This document shows positions 3,863-43,837 of a stretch of DNA of 57,856 nt, in pieces; positions within the stretch are counted from its first letter, which is position 1; every line of letters begins with the position of its first letter. The position numbers were made by a program, and so were the translations under genes. The notes under the pieces were generated by a model. That model had not been told where the DNA came from and made no database searches. It saw nothing but the letters and a program-made list of their open reading frames with translations. Source of the DNA: Pseudomonadota bacterium (lineage in GTDB: Bacteria > Pseudomonadota > Gammaproteobacteria > Nitrosococcales > Methylophagaceae); NCBI GenBank assembly GCA_030576275.1, contig JALIBN010000012.1:190507-248362 (forward strand), in the 5' to 3' direction.

Positions 3863-3896
3863 AAAAAAGCCTCAACACTAAAATCAATGCTGAGGC
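3863..3896 (-). terminator. terminator after the Cache-domain gene
   Basis: Read on the minus strand, a stem of about 10 bp (GCCTCA paired with TGAGGC, extended by G-T pairs) is followed by six T. It lies 34 bases past the stop of the 3930-4376 gene. Confidence 0.75.
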
Positions 3897-3929
3897 TCTG
3901 CTGTGTATGGTGGTAGGGGGATGGCCCTC

Positions 3930-4376
3930 CTATTCTTTGTAGATGCCACAATTAAATCGAAAGTCATCTACTAGAATGGTATATGTTGTTTTCTCATGTG
4001 TTGTACCCGTTAATGGATTAGGCCAGATATAATCAACCGAACCTCCATCGTTGCCAATTTGCATTATCTCTCTTCCAAAGAATTTCCCATTTTCATCTTT
4101 CAACTCCATTGTATCCGTGCCTACAAATTCTATATTGGCGCCATGGGCAACAACCAGACCGTTCTTATCATAAACAAAAACATATAGCTGGCCTCGACTA
4201 AGTTTTCCATTGGGATTGTTGATTTCAGTAAAGGTTTTCTCTTTCCCATTGGCCTTGTAGAAATCGACGGCCTCATTTATAAGTTGTTTTGCTTCCTCTG
4301 GAGTAGCTGCGATAGTAGTAAAAGAAGAAAATAGGAATGTAAGATATAGGAAAGTTGTTGCAATTTTTCTTAACAT
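3930..4376 (-). CDS. periplasmic single-Cache domain protein
   Basis: A 148-residue protein: signal peptide (MLRKIATTFLYLTF...IAA, residues 1-24) and one small Cache/PAS-like sensor domain. Diagnostic parts are EAVDFYKANGKEKTFTEINN, GQLYVFVYDKNGLVVAHG and FGREIMQ...GGSVDYIWPNP. Such domains bind small ligands, but here there is no membrane helix or output domain, so it is a free periplasmic binding or sensor protein. I chose ATG 4376 (AAGG upstream) over a TTG at 4409 that would put charged residues before the signal peptide. The partner is unknown. Confidence 0.75.
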   Translation of the reverse strand: MLRKIATTFLYLTFLFSSFTTIAATPEEAKQLINEAVDFYKANGKEKTFTEINNPNGKLSRGQLYVFVYDKNGLVVAHGANIEFVGTDTMELKDENGKFFGREIMQIGNDGGSVDYIWPNPLTGTTHEKTTYTILVDDFRFNCGIYKE

Positions 4377-4409
4377 TTTTAGTACCTTTATTTTAGGAGA
4401 GTTCAACAA

Positions 4410-5119
4410 GTATTATTGAGGTGATCATGTATATCACTGAAAATAATATATGTTATTAAATTTATATCGTCAAGATTACTATGGGTCATCGATTATTATC
4501 GGAGAGTTGCAATATATTACTTTTACCTTTTACTTATTTTGTGGCGCAAGATCGACCATTCTTGAGGTTCGATTAGATACTTTTTTCTATTTCGGTTGCA
4601 AGTGGGGTGCTTTTATTAAAGTAGTAGACAAAAAAGACCACTTTAATTCAAAGAGTTTGATTTATAAGGGCTTGAACCTTGAGAAAAAGGGTCGTGAATA
4701 ACAGCTGTCACATACTCATGCATCACTAAACTAAAGAGAAGTCACGTGTAAATTTCATTGCTCAGCATGGAAATTCAAAATTCGACCGTAATCGAAGCTG
4801 ATTAATTACCCTCTTATACATCACTGCACTAAGCTGAAGCAATATAATGGGTTTCCCAAAGTGAACGGCGAACTATAAGCCGAAACCTAGTGCAAATGCC
4901 CCTCTTTTTCAGCTATCAAAATTTAACCCTGAGGCATGGTTGCTAACGCTTGTAGCCCCTGAATTTAGCTAATTAAGTCAGAATCGTTACCGGTACGGCG
5001 AAAATGCTAAAAGTTTTAAGCGTTGATGTTAATTAGACACCTAAAGAAAGCCATTATCAAAATAAATAGCGCTGGTGCTGATTATCTGGCTTTGTGCTCA
5101 ATTGGTTCTATCGTCTTTG
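4410..5119. other. gene-poor stretch with tRNA-flank relic
   Basis: About 700 bases without a convincing gene. An 83-codon frame at 4450-4701 (+) overlaps the tRNA-flank repeat at 4557-4697 and ends inside the tRNA-like relic, so I consider it fortuitous. From 4700 to 5119 I see no gene, RNA or strong hairpin. Confidence 0.5.
4557..4697 (-). repeat. diverged direct repeat, copy A: relic of tRNA-Ile2 3' end and its flank
   Basis: About 140 bases align, with many substitutions and gaps, to 6464-6619. Shared stretches include GGTTGCAAGTG, TAAAGTA.TAG.CAAAAAA, GACC, TTTAT and, inside the tRNA, CTTGAACCTTG followed by AAAGGG. About 12 bases matching the acceptor/CCA end are missing in copy A, so no functional tRNA is encoded. 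The order of shared blocks is the same in both copies. Likely an old duplication or a remnant attachment site. Confidence 0.6.
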
Positions 5120-5515
5120 TCAGGCAAAGCTTTGTTTTCGGCGCTCAGAGCTGTTGCTACGATGCTCTTTAGCATTATAAACACCTGTCATTACGAGACT
5201 TGGGTATCGACGGTCACTCCCAGAGCGGCGATCGTCATGATGAAGGTAGCTACACGTACATGTTGGATTAGTACATCCATGGATAGGCAGCGCAGTAATT
5301 TCACTCGGTAAAAATCTTTTCCCTTCGAGCCTACTCACGGGGCCACACGCTTGTGAGCAAAGATGAATGCTCGTGCCATGATATTTTTTTGCTTGGGGCT
5401 TGGCAGAGGATGTACTTTTATGATTCTGAACTAAACGGGTATTAGAATGGCGATGCAACCAGTACAAAACAATGCAGAGTAATACCAGAATAAATAAAAA
5501 TAATAAGTTTTCCAT
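5120..5515 (-). CDS. membrane-anchored Cys-rich conserved protein (unknown function)
   Basis: 131 residues. An N-terminal transmembrane helix (4-20) is followed by a basic, Ser/Lys-rich linker and a conserved-looking core: CSQACGPVSRLEGKRFLPSE, then LPIHGC, CTCSYLH and DDRRSGSDRR. The C-x-C-x-Y-x-H ... DRR arrangement recalls small uncharacterised gammaproteobacterial proteins, but I cannot name a family. The cysteines and histidine could bind metal (inference). A good ribosome site (AAGGAG) precedes the ATG. It lies downstream of pqqA on the same strand but beyond the pqqA terminator. Confidence 0.75.
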   Translation of the reverse strand: MENLLFLFILVLLCIVLYWLHRHSNTRLVQNHKSTSSAKPQAKKYHGTSIHLCSQACGPVSRLEGKRFLPSEITALPIHGCTNPTCTCSYLHHDDRRSGSDRRYPSLVMTGVYNAKEHRSNSSERRKQSFA

Positions 5516-5953
5516 GATTCCTTACTCCTTTTCAAGTAGGGAAGGATCACATTATAATGATGTGAATAACAAAGTTAGGGATTAATAGACTAAGGCTTTA
5601 ACTTGTTATCTTAATATACTCCAATTTTTATTTGATGTAACCCCACACATGAATTATCGTTAAAGGGTTTTCAACCGCACACAAAATTATTCATAGTACC
5701 TGGACAAATACGATATTAAAATTGCTTATCCCTCAGGCCAAAATTCAAAACAACATCATTAAATCTTAGAGTAGATCAACTCATCAAAGCATATAGTGCT
5801 GCTAATGGGACGAGATCTCACCGTATTGGCACGTTAGCGCCGAATTTTTCATTTAGTATTTCAAGTAGCATTTAACCGATGGTTAACAGCTTTTCAGTGC
5901 GTCACTTAAATGGAAGCTCTGATTTACTCAACAATTACAGATGCTTATGACAT
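5516..5953. other. intergenic stretch between pqqA terminator and the Cys-rich gene
   Basis: No gene I can support. On the minus strand around 5740-5890 several short frames could be pieces of a decayed coding sequence interrupted by stops, but I recognise no family. Confidence 0.4.
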
Positions 5954-5990
5954 AAAAAAGCCTCAGTAGACTTAGCTACTGAGGCTTTTT
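5954..5990 (-). terminator. terminator of pqqA
   Basis: Near-perfect hairpin: AAAAAGCCTCAGTAG pairs with CTACTGAGGCTTTTT around a short loop. It ends 25 bases after the pqqA stop and has an oligo-T run when read on the minus strand. It makes pqqA a one-gene transcription unit. Confidence 0.85.
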
Positions 5991-6014
5991 AGGAGCTTTT
6001 TGTAATCTTAAATT

Positions 6015-6086
6015 TTAACGATTGCAGATGTACATTGTCACTTCAAAGCCGAAACGCATATCTGAATACTCTGGTTTAGTCCACAT
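6015..6086 (-). CDS. pqqA: PqqA, PQQ precursor peptide (orphan copy)
   Basis: A 23-residue peptide starting [16 protein letters not shown] and ending TMYICNR, a clear match to PqqA. Glu15 and Tyr19 are the residues that PqqE cross-links with PqqD to form pyrroloquinoline quinone, the cofactor of methanol dehydrogenases. A very strong ribosome site (GGAGGTGAT) lies just upstream. No pqqBCDE genes follow: a terminator comes first, then an unrelated gene 500 bases on. Some methylotrophs carry extra pqqA copies (family knowledge), which fits. The Cys at position 21 near the C-terminus is a minor oddity. Confidence 0.93.
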
Positions 6087-6287
6087 AGTGATCACCTCCT
6101 CTTTTGAATGAATGTTGTTTACGACTCATATATTACATAACACATATCAATAAAAGTATCGGGTATTTGCTTGATTGGAGTCAGGATTTTTCTGAGACAT
6201 CTCTTGGCCCTGCTTTCTTTGAAAAAGGTGCCAGTGGGTACGCCATGAGCAATAGATATTATCAAGCCACCCCCATCACTATAACTA

Positions 6288-6365
6288 TTATACTGAACTA
6301 GCAACCATGACTAGATAACATACCAATGTAGCGCACAGCCCTGTTTCTAGTAGGAACTTACTCAT
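6288..6365 (-). CDS. possible 25-residue hydrophobic peptide
   Basis: ATG with GGAGATGAT a few bases upstream, encoding MSKFLLETGLCATLVCYLVM followed by VASSV and a TAA. It would form one membrane-spanning segment. It lies 200 bases upstream of pqqA on the same strand. Evidence is only the ribosome site and the hydrophobic composition; it may be chance. Confidence 0.3.
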   Translation of the reverse strand: MSKFLLETGLCATLVCYLVMVASSV

Positions 6366-6463
6366 ATCATCTCCAATACATTTAAGATACGGTGATGTTT
6401 CGTGGAGGTTGTTGCTGCTAAACCATGTTTTGTGTATGTTGCGCAAGGTTGATTATTCTCAAT

Positions 6464-6619
6464 CATTCTTAAGGTGCGAATAGATGGTTTTTTAATAGTG
6501 GTTGCAAGTGAGTTGCACAGCTAAAGTAATAGGCAAAAAAAAGACCTACATTTAACTGTAAGTCTTTTATTTATATGGTGGGCCTACAAGGACTTGAACC
6601 TTGGACAAAGGGATTATGA
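6464..6619 (-). repeat. diverged direct repeat, copy B: 3' part of intact tRNA-Ile2 and its flank
   Basis: Counterpart of 4557-4697. It covers the terminator of the rpoD operon and the T-arm and acceptor side of the functional tRNA. The 1.8 kb between the copies holds the Cys-rich protein gene and pqqA. Confidence 0.6.
6535..6569 (-). terminator. terminator of the rpsU-yqeY-dnaG-rpoD-tRNA operon
   Basis: On the minus strand AAGACTTACA pairs with TGTAGGTCTT (one T-G pair) and is followed by eight T, directly downstream of the tRNA CCA end. Confidence 0.8.
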
Positions 6620-6652
6620 GTCCCCTGCTCTAACCAACTGAGCTATAGGCCC
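6576..6652 (-). tRNA. tRNA-Ile2 (CAU anticodon, lysidine type)
   Basis: A 77-base tRNA with encoded CCA. Acceptor GGGCCTA pairs with TAGGCCC; D-arm GCTCAGTTGGTTAGAGC; anticodon loop CTCATAA; T-loop GGTTCAAGTCC. The anticodon is CAU, so it could be read as Met, but C4 and C5 in the acceptor stem (CC, as in E. coli Ile2, instead of UA in elongator Met) and its place after rpoD, where ileX lies in enterics, favour the TilS-modified Ile2 reading AUA. It starts 8 bases after the rpoD stop, so it is probably processed from the rpoD message. Confidence 0.88.
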
Positions 6653-6660
6653 GAAACTTT

Positions 6661-8454
6661 CTAGTTATCGGTATCTAAGAAGCTACGTAATTGATCCGAA
6701 CGTGTCGGATGACGTAGTTTACGTAGTGCTTTTGCTTCTATTTGACGAATACGTTCACGTGTTACGTCAAATTGTTTACCTACTTCTTCTAAGGTATGGT
6801 CTGTATTCATGTCGATACCAAAACGCATCCGTAGTACTTTTGCTTCTCGTTCGGTAAGGCCGCTGAGTATACCTTGTGTTGCTTCTCTTAGGCCTTCAAT
6901 CATGGCCGAATCTTGTGGAGACATTACATTGGTATCTTCAACAAAGTCACCTAAATGTGAATCTTCATCATCACCTATCGGTGTTTCCATTGAAATTGGT
7001 TCTTTCGAAATTTTAAGTACTTTACGTACTTTATCTTCCGGCATTTCTACCCGTTCTGCTAATTCTTGTGGTGTTGGCTCACGCCCCATTTCCTGTAACA
7101 TTTGTCGCGCAATTCGATTCAGTTTGTTGATCGTTTCGATCATATGTACTGGAATACGAATTGTGCGCGCTTGATCAGCAATTGAACGCGTAATTGCTTG
7201 ACGTATCCACCATGTAGCATAGGTAGAAAATTTATAACCACGTTGATATTCAAACTTATCAACAGCCTTCATCAAGCCGATATTACCTTCTTGGATCAGG
7301 TCGAGGAACTGTAAACCGCGGTTAGTATATTTTTTCGCAATCGAGATGACAAGTCGTAAATTCGCTTCAACCATTTCTTTTTTGGCACGACGTGCTTTTG
7401 CTTCAGAAATAGTCATTTGACGGCTGATTTCTTTGATCTCAGGAATTTCCATTCCACGATCTAAAGATACTTCGGCCAGCTTTGTTTGCGCATTGATGAT
7501 TTGATCAAGATTTTTCTTGATGGTTGAAGAGTAGTGCTTTTTGGCTCGGATATGTTTATCTGTCCATTCAAGGTTAGTTTCATTACCCATGAATGATTCG
7601 ATAAAATCACGGCGTTCCATTCTTGCTTCTTCAACGATGATTTTGCTAATCGTACGTTCTTGTTTGCGAATGATCGCAACGGTGTCACGCATTAAGCTAT
7701 TCAGAAGAATCAGTGTTTTGGGCGTAAGCTTGAATTCCATAAACAGATCAGTGACTAGAGCATTGGCTGTTTCAAGCTCATTGTCTGTCGCTTTTTCTGC
7801 TTGGCTCACTGCCTCACGAAGTGCGGTGAAGTGTTCTTTGGCTTCTTCAGGATCTACACCAACGGCTGATTCGTCTTCATCATCGTCATCCGTGTTTTCT
7901 TTTGCTGGAGGTCCGGCAACGACTGGTTCAGGATTAAGATCTTCAGGTAATATAAAGCCTTTAATCACCTCATTTAGACGCATTTCGCCAGCTTCGACGG
8001 CTTCGTACAAGCTAAGAAACTTTTTAATGCACGGTGGATATGTCGTCAGCATTAATAGACTTTCGCGAAGGCCAGCTTCAATGCGTTTTGCAATGACAAT
8101 TTCGCCTTCACGGGTCAATAACTCTACCGATCCCATTTCACGCATGTACATACGCACAGGATCAGTGGTGCGACCGAATTCACCATCTGAACTAGACAAT
8201 ACTGCGGCGGCTTCATCAGCAGAAACATCATCATTGTTGGTGGCAGCTTCAGCTAAGCGTTCCATCTCATCGGTATCCATGCCATCTTCATGGACCATAA
8301 TACCGAGATCACTGAACATGCCGATGATGTCTTCGATTTGATCTGCGTCAACCAAGTTTTCGGGTAAGTGATCGTTTATCTCACCATAAGTGAGGTATCC
8401 GCGTTCTTTCCCAAGTGTGATTAGCGCTTTAATTCGTGACTGTTGATCTTTCAT
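6661..8454 (-). CDS. rpoD: RNA polymerase sigma70 factor
   Basis: Housekeeping sigma factor, 597 residues (E. coli 613). Order visible: region 1.1 with an acidic stretch, the non-conserved region with an acidic run (DDDDEDES), region 2 ([49 protein letters not shown]), region 3 and region 4 ([35 protein letters not shown]). The end [13 protein letters not shown] is typical. AGAGGT precedes the ATG. It is the last protein gene of the operon and runs straight into tRNA-Ile2. Confidence 0.98.
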
Positions 8455-42385: not shown

Positions 42386-43837
42386 ATGGAAACCACCATT
42401 CAACATTTTCCATTGATGATCGCAGGGCTATCTAAAATAAGCTCGGAATCTTTTGAAGTTACATCACCCTTCGACGGTAGCTTATTAGGGACGGTAGCTA
42501 AGGCCAATGAGAGTGATATCGATTATGCACTAAATACCGCGGCTAACTTATTTGCAGATCGTGCTAATTGGTTACCGAAGGCTGAACGTATTGCTATTCT
42601 TGAGCGTTCTATTGTGATTATGGAGCAACAGGCCGAAAGCTTAGCCCTTGGTGCTGCTCATGAAGGCGGTAAACCGCTGACGGATTCACACGTTGAAATG
42701 GTTCGTTGTATCGATAGTATTCGTCTTTGCGCAAATACTTTACGCCATGATGTAAGTAAACCGGTGCCTATGGGGGCGAACGCTGCTTCGCAACATCGAC
42801 TGACTATCATGAATAAAGAACCTATCGGTGTTGTTGTCGCGGTGAGTGCATTTAATCATCCCTTGAACTTGATTGCGCATCAAGTTGGTCCAGCGATTGC
42901 TGCCGGTTGTCCGGTTATCGTCAAGCCGGCTGAAAATACCCCATTGTCATGTTTCCGCTTAGTTGAGATTTTTCATCAAGCGGGTTTGCCTGCGCAATGG
43001 TGTCAGGTTGTAATGCCTGAAAATCATCAAGTGGCAGAAAAACTAGTCACCGATCCTCGGGTCGCATTTTTCAGCTTCATTGGCAGTGCTAAAGTAGGTT
43101 GGTATTTACGATCTAAATTAGCAGCAGGAACCCGTTGTGCATTAGAACATGGCGGCGTTGCGCCTGTTATTGTGGCTGAAGATGCCGATGTGGCGGCCGC
43201 CATACCTGGACTAGCTAAAGGTGGTTTTTATCATGCAGGACAAGTTTGTGTATCAGTGCAACGGCTTTATGTTCACGAATCTATCGCTCGTGATGTTGCC
43301 TCGCGCTTAGTCGCTGTGGCAACAAAGATGGTGGTCGGGGATCCTTTGTCAGATAAGACTGAAGTAGGACCATTAATTAGAAGCAGTGAAGTAGATCGTG
43401 TTGACGCTTGGGTGAAGGACGCTGTCAGTGATGGGGCTGAATTGCTGTGTGGTGGGCACTCACTTCCGAATAACTGCTATCCACCAACAGTGCTATATAA
43501 TCCAAGCAATGATAGTCAGATTTCTCAGGCTGAAATATTTGGTCCGGTAGTCTGTATCTATCCTTTTAATGATTTAGATCACGCTATCGTGGCAGCTAAC
43601 TCGCTTGATGTTGCTTTTCAAGCCTCGGTTTATAGTCAAAATATCAATACCTCAATGTATGTTGCCAGCCGATTAGATGCCTCTGCGGTGATGATCAATG
43701 AACACACGGCATTTCGTGTTGACTGGATGCCTTTTGCTGGCTTGAAACATTCAGGGCTAGGCACCGGCGGTATTCCATACACTATGGAAGATATGCAAGT
43801 GGATAAGATGATTGTCATCACCTCTAAAGGTATTTAA
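42386..43837 (+). CDS. NAD(P)-dependent aldehyde dehydrogenase
   Basis: 483 residues. Catalytic Cys in FYHAGQVCVSVQRLYVH; the general-base Glu in CALEHGGVAPVIV, where the common LGG is HGG. AFNHPLNLIAHQVGPAIAAG and PVIVKPAENTPLS bind cofactor; EIFGPVVCIYPF is typical. Operon with the acetolactate-synthase-like gene. Substrate not deducible. Confidence 0.9.
   Translation: METTIQHFPLMIAGLSKISSESFEVTSPFDGSLLGTVAKANESDIDYALNTAANLFADRANWLPKAERIAILERSIVIMEQQAESLALGAAHEGGKPLTDSHVEMVRCIDSIRLCANTLRHDVSKPVPMGANAASQHRLTIMNKEPIGVVVAVSAFNHPLNLIAHQVGPAIAAGCPVIVKPAENTPLSCFRLVEIFHQAGLPAQWCQVVMPENHQVAEKLVTDPRVAFFSFIGSAKVGWYLRSKLAAGTRCALEHGGVAPVIVAEDADVAAAIPGLAKGGFYHAGQVCVSVQRLYVHESIARDVASRLVAVATKMVVGDPLSDKTEVGPLIRSSEVDRVDAWVKDAVSDGAELLCGGHSLPNNCYPPTVLYNPSNDSQISQAEIFGPVVCIYPFNDLDHAIVAANSLDVAFQASVYSQNINTSMYVASRLDASAVMINEHTAFRVDWMPFAGLKHSGLGTGGIPYTMEDMQVDKMIVITSKGI

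Follow-up and report, generated by a model that had tools for sequence, protein, structure and literature searches.

A one-gene pqqA unit

The window, a 57,856-nucleotide stretch of contig C12 of a 2.37-Mb genome (34 contigs; 99.98% complete), carries on its minus strand a very small pqqA gene (6015..6086) encoding a peptide of 23 aa followed by a stop codon. The translation scores 42.1 bits with the Pfam profile PF08042 (cutoff, 21.1) and 50.7 bits with the NCBIfam profile TIGR02107 (cutoff, 20), which bears out the pqqA gene that an earlier note had proposed from the letters of the window. As that note had also read, the peptide contains E15 and Y19, four residues apart, which is the Glu/Tyr pair that becomes PQQ. 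Its claim of a very strong ribosome site agrees with an 11-nucleotide Shine-Dalgarno match, AGGAGGTGATC (6090..6100, minus strand), the longest among the nine pqqA copies of the genome (0 to 8 nucleotides in the other eight); the complement used was that of the E. coli-type anti-Shine-Dalgarno sequence, which we assume to apply to this organism. The gene likewise has a Rho-independent terminator of its own (5954..5990, minus strand) with a 15-bp stem and a T run ending at 5954, and a folding energy of -22.3 kcal/mol was obtained for the 71-nucleotide terminator stretch (z = -4.7), a value equaled by 0 of 200 shuffled sequences. A simple terminator scanner run on the window did not list this hairpin. 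A generic sigma-70 scan returned no promoter at the place predicted for the window pqqA (see below); such a miss is what an activated promoter might show, yet it lends no support to one. We infer that the locus is a functional, transcribed one-gene pqqA unit. High output was the proposal of the earlier note, and expression is here a prediction from the sequence.

Nine pqqA copies and one processing locus

The best named matches recovered with the RpoD of this genome were from a Piscirickettsiaceae metagenome-assembled genome and Methylophaga sp. 42_25_T18 (82% identity each), and the genome appears to be of the Methylophagaceae type and that of a methylotroph, which may grow on methanol. It contains nine PF08042 (pqqA) matches versus a single pqqE match genome-wide. 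All nine copies encode the identical 23-residue peptide, and their coding sequences differ in 12 columns, all of them third positions and all synonymous. The naive chance of 12 of 12 changes being silent is 1.3e-9 (36 of the 198 possible single changes are silent), an estimate that ignores the relatedness of the copies and codon bias.

The processing genes lie on contig C19 in the order sensor kinase, LuxR-type response regulator, pqqA, pqqA, pqqB, pqqC, pqqD, pqqE, and ABC transporter, and PqqB, PqqC, PqqD, and PqqE of this locus (L014) all score above their NCBIfam cutoffs; the genome-wide count of processing genes rests on pqqE, with pqqB to pqqD read at the C19 locus. No pqqB to pqqE therefore follows the window pqqA, as the earlier note had stated, the only pqqE match of the genome being on C19, and the pqqBCDE set that it proposed to look for is present there. 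Seven copies, including that of the window, have no adjoining pqqE and are orphans (one copy, L010, sits at a contig end). A hairpin with a T run follows seven of the nine (seven of the eight with a readable tail, that of L010 being cut by the contig end). The copy immediately upstream of pqqB is followed by a hairpin lacking the T run, which makes lower-level read-through into pqqB to pqqE plausible.

One PQQ-alcohol dehydrogenase scores above its family cutoff (709.9 versus 480), with an Asp-x-Asp pattern that we take to be that of lanthanide-type XoxF, and a second open frame falls below it (454.6 versus 480). Broken matches to this family with in-frame stops occur at G000:C1:61026-62584 and G000:C24:186521-187043. 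The idea that the window gene serves to supply substrate peptide thus gains from the presence of pqqBCDE elsewhere, from the single pqqE for nine pqqA copies, and from the one dehydrogenase above the cutoff, but the gene is not the sole pqqA: the search for further copies recovered eight more, making it one of nine.

Across the family, pqqA is found in 26 of 36 genomes (this one counted), with 2 to 9 copies each, and the four pqqA-bearing genomes of an outgroup family have one each. The relative G006 (99% complete) has three copies versus the nine found here.

A shared upstream element

The upstream blocks of the nine copies have AAG(G/A)AAAATCCTGAG-like sequence in common, and every one of them carries the same element, consisting of a pair of AAGnnnnnTCCT-like sites with a spacing of 22 bp and then a -10-like TAnnnT. 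In the window, all on the minus strand, box 1 (6180..6194; CAGAAAAATCCTGAC) matches 13 of 15 positions of the family pattern MAGGAAAATCCTGAG, box 2 (6161..6172; AAGCAAATACCC) begins 22 bp after box 1, and the predicted -10 element TAATAT (6130..6135) is one base off the family position. Among the nine copies, TAnnnT is at the exact position in five and within one base of it in eight.

We surveyed the element in 68 pqqA copies from 17 genomes (65 in 14 family genomes, this one included, and 3 in the outgroup family). Of the 65 family copies, 61 reach a score of 11 or more out of 15 and 56 a score of 13 or more; shuffled upstream regions reach these values in 165 and 1 of 3,400 cases, respectively. 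As the pattern was drawn from the scored sequences, these counts are a description more than a test. All three copies of the outgroup family have a score of 9. The four family copies scoring below 11 are L116:817 (the second of a tandem pair), L118, L124, and L147:310, and the box is absent at L118:2514, L124:1873, and L147:310. In L118 and L124, pqqA is just 3' of the same gene, presumably a cysteine-synthase-like open reading frame (ORF), which suggests that these copies use another promoter.

Fifty-two promoters from 13 relatives align without gaps over box 1 (columns 0 to 14), box 2 (22 to 33), and TAnnnT (58 to 63), with G24 conserved in 51, C32 in all 52, and TAnnnT in 46. The two boxes look like direct repeats of AAGnnnnnTCCT spaced by 22 bp, i.e., two helical turns; with TAnnnT taken as the -10 element, their centers would be near -63 and -41, a usual position for an activator. 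Box 1 also reads as an imperfect palindrome with the potential to fold into a short hairpin, as would be expected if the element acted in an RNA leader, as a riboswitch or attenuator, and not as a DNA operator. We consider an RNA leader very improbable: the element is upstream of the -10-like TAnnnT at a fixed distance in 46 of the 52 promoters, and in an Rfam scan of window positions 5500 to 6700 a tRNA alone reached the gathering score.

Apparent restriction of the element to pqqA

We built a sequence-only, 46-column model (R1) from the 52 promoters of the relatives, leaving this genome out. With 150 of 1,030 first-look candidates scored in this genome, so that very divergent sites could be missed, the nine pqqA promoters take the first nine places among the R1 matches (E values from 9.9e-9 to 0.02), and the next three matches have E values of 0.34 to 0.47. 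In 21 held-out genomes, R1 gave 20 matches below 1e-3, all in the nine relatives with pqqA; 19 are just upstream of pqqA and one (G002:C268) is at a contig end. At this threshold the model covers 19 of the 24 pqqA matches in those nine relatives, the other five being G013:C6:14846 (E = 0.05), G024:C87 (at a contig start), G002:C68, G002:C86 (which holds a stop), and G025:C15. None of the 12 genomes that lack pqqA or belong to the outgroup family has a match below 1e-3, the best being 0.0027 in the outgroup genome G037. Eight further matches in the 21 held-out genomes have E values between 1e-3 and 0.1; one is upstream of pqqA, and the rest, including those in three genomes without pqqA, were treated as noise.

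The pattern MARRAAAWTCCTKAG, with at most one mismatch, occurs at 15 sites in this genome versus 3 for a reversed-pattern control. Eight of these are pqqA promoters, the ninth pqqA copy having two mismatches. We rejected the box as a mark of other genes at the remaining seven sites, of which one is in rpoD, five are in other ORFs, and one is outside the listed ORFs. A looser search with an exact 14-mer was dropped as unspecific, with matches in 23 of 25 genomes, outgroups included, and was replaced by the 46-column model.

A candidate regulator next to pqqA

The response regulator encoded on C19 combines a receiver domain (PF00072) with a GerE domain (PF00196), both above their cutoffs, and its partner sensor kinase has a HisKA_3 domain (PF07730), also above the cutoff, plus PAS and HAMP domains. 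In MoxYX-type two-component systems, a kinase and a LuxR-type regulator are linked to methanol-oxidation genes. Here, in contrast, the pair adjoins pqqA-pqqBCDE rather than a methanol dehydrogenase gene, and the match of the kinase to the MoxY periplasmic domain (LapD_MoxY_N, PF16448) is below the cutoff (17.1 bits versus 25; E = 0.005).

Of the 23 pqqA-bearing family genomes searched, 21 encode the regulator at an identity of at least 79%, versus none of 12 others, and in all 12 loci holding it, that of this genome included, it is directly followed by a box-bearing pqqA. In G034, the regulator-linked pqqA is about 13 kb from the pqqA that precedes pqqB, and in G030 and G032 the two are on different contigs; the kinase and regulator thus travel with a pqqA and not with pqqB to pqqE. 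The co-occurrence of regulator and pqqA is not phylogenetically independent and may just mark the pqq locus of the family.

The element could instead be read by a regulator other than this pair. Such an arrangement would account for G035 (99% complete), in which no regulator match was found at 1e-60 although the box is present on five of six pqqA copies; this counts against the assignment, unless, as is possible, an assembly gap hides the gene. In G025 (82% complete), the regulator was likewise not found. Given the distribution of the neighboring regulator over pqqA-bearing genomes and its invariable position directly beside a box-bearing pqqA, we rate a different regulator as rather unlikely and retain the neighboring LuxR-type protein as the leading candidate.

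Insertion at tRNA-Met and origin of the window copy

Upstream of the window pqqA is a tRNA-Met gene (anticodon CAT; 6576..6652, minus strand). A base-level reading of the relatives G001 and G006 shows an empty site, with this tRNA directly followed by a terminator with TATGGTGG. In the window, the same ancestral terminator plus TATGGTGG (3863..3913) is 2.66 kb away from the tRNA, from which we deduce that the intervening, pqqA-bearing segment (3914..6575) entered at the 3' end of the tRNA. The pqqA copy of the window seems to be a recent arrival that came within this insertion. We found no pqqA within about 1,500 bases past rpoD in any of the 14 readable relatives, including G001 and G006 (RpoD 99% and 96% identical, respectively); the other three relatives among the 17 whose rpoD loci were read (G002, G008, and G024) are uninformative, as these loci end 141 bases or fewer from rpoD or inside it. 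A regular-expression search likewise gave 0 of 80 rpoD loci with an adjacent pqqA in named genomes, many of these loci being cut by contig ends.

The absence of pqqA from this site in the relatives is what would be expected if the orphan copies were redundant duplicates kept by chance, with no role in dosage. The spread of copy number over the 26 pqqA-bearing family genomes points the same way, as does work on Methylovorus, cited in PMC6520949, in which by its title one copy contributes dominantly and in which the copies are reported to respond differently. Redundancy nevertheless seems quite improbable in view of the exclusively synonymous variation in the coding sequences, the presence of the element at all nine copies, and the retention of a hairpin and T run at seven of the eight readable tails.

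We also weighed the possibility that the window copy is mainly the cargo of an integrative element, perhaps phage derived, that uses tRNA-Met. Such an origin is favored by the position of the insertion, which starts exactly where the tRNA ends, by the carriage of orphan pqqA genes by phages (see below), and by the situation in G001, where an ORF for a phage integrase is found about 3 kb away from this tRNA. However, when the three ORFs of at least 80 aa in the insertion were scanned against Pfam, none was an integrase, and the only direct repeat flanking the insertion is the 8-nucleotide TATGGTGG. The window copy also carries the family element, whereas viral copies among the matches listed score 8 to 11 of 15 (11 in seven), the level of shuffled sequences. 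Further, about 345 bp of the window unit is shared at 80% identity with the copy on C14 of this genome, so that the duplicated piece looks like a promoter-gene-terminator cassette. On balance, we think it doubtful that the gene is chiefly integrative cargo.

Within the insertion, 35 nucleotides (4663 to 4697) are 74% identical to part of tRNA-Met (6585 to 6619), possibly what nested insertions left of a second tRNA. At L016:5038-8471, about 3.4 kb separates another orphan pqqA from a tRNA-His, and an ORF for a phage integrase lies between the two, so that this copy, too, may sit in an island. The notion that a tRNA or tmRNA stands beside every pqqA copy was rejected, one being within the stretch at only four of the eight loci scanned.

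A proposed substrate-supply model

The reading that we prefer, with a probability of roughly two in three, is that the window gene is a one-gene pqqA unit, one of nine making the same peptide, probably under one activator, most likely the neighboring LuxR-type regulator, and that these units raise the substrate over pqqB to pqqE. One PqqA is consumed for each PQQ made, so that the peptide is needed in excess of the enzymes. The nine units would yield a single PqqA peptide, in which PqqD and PqqE would cross-link Glu15 and Tyr19, and the remaining Pqq enzymes would convert the cross-linked peptide to PQQ. The extra, mostly terminated pqqA copies would thereby raise peptide supply without raising pqqB to pqqE, with a presumed benefit in dosage. 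A single activator probably drives all nine by binding the two tandem sites near -63 and -41, and the likeliest one is the LuxR-type regulator with its sensor kinase, encoded directly upstream of pqqA-pqqA-pqqBCDE.

A more far-reaching version, which we put forward tentatively and with slightly less than even confidence, is that of a dedicated two-component system whose sole targets in the genome are the dispersed pqqA genes. Cofactor output would then be scaled by copying a 200- to 350-bp promoter-peptide-terminator cassette, sometimes into tRNA integration sites, with every copy falling under the same switch.

PQQ supply may limit methanol oxidation, and the balance between a consumed peptide substrate and its enzymes is rarely visible from sequence. 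With nine copies of one peptide, an operator-like element that the model search (150 of 1,030 candidates scored) placed at pqqA genes alone, and one candidate regulator, this balance becomes directly testable. The combination of the box and a tiny ORF also offers a handle for finding unannotated pqqA genes.

Comparison with known systems

Multicopy and orphan pqqA genes are already known, and the orphan state is ordinary for methylotrophs. The Methylophilaceae have 3 to 12 pqqA copies and, with one exception, a single set of the other pqq genes (PMC4109929). The two cases are alike in having multicopy pqqA and one processing set in methylotrophs, but the present genome is of another family, and its copies encode identical peptides and share an upstream element, with a candidate for a dedicated regulator. 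An orphan pqqA missed by annotation is also described for Methylosinus trichosporium OB3b, with expression values of 11,857 and 13,927 versus 161 to 372 for pqqB, pqqC/D, and pqqE (PMC3615186). Both organisms thus have stand-alone pqqA; in the portion of that report consulted, OB3b has one such gene with measured expression, whereas here the evidence is that of sequence. Beijerinckiaceae bacterium RH AL1 resembles the present genome in having several copies, namely, three pqqA genes whose expression falls in the presence of neodymium or of a lanthanide mix (for one of the three, only neodymium has this effect); a shared promoter element does not figure in the available part of that account (PMC10848612). 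No such pqqA upstream element was described in the titles and abstract starts of the open-license literature that we searched, and the shared element and its candidate regulator appear to be the new part.

Viral and divergent pqqA

For a Lake Baikal virus of methylotrophs, a viral PqqA was proposed to feed the host pathway (PMC7678222); that pqqA is virus borne, and the viral copies read here differ from those of the present genome in lacking a family-level element score. In INPHARED, a PqqA-like peptide (64 to 74% identity) occurs in 12 of 50,697 phage records (e.g., OP830907.1, positions 43050 to 43118 [L306], and MZ577097.1, positions 76140 to 76205 [L307]), comprising nine Methylophilales/Methylophilaceae phages, one unassigned member of the Caudoviricetes, and two records labeled Acinetobacter phage. 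The annotation shows no gene at this place in 7 of the 12 and a hypothetical gene in 5, on the opposite strand in Melnitz EXVC044M; a term search of the main text of the Melnitz paper (PMC9004378) did not find pqqA. A degenerate GFEVTMY pattern recovered at least 80 loci in IMG/VR contigs (L173 to L252), and all 80 listed have PqqA-like ends. Searches of these 80 loci (700 kb) by tblastn at 1e-4 with PqqB to PqqE of this genome gave no match. Portal, head, helicase, and polymerase families are represented among ten proteins from five of the IMG/VR contigs.

Three relatives (L135:1878, L141:2187, and L149:1789) encode a divergent PqqA of the GFEVTAYV type, with the element upstream at 13 to 14 of 15. 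In two of them it is followed by its own relatives of PqqD (43.5 to 44.7% identity) and PqqE (50.5 to 52.1%), and in the third it is followed by a contig end.
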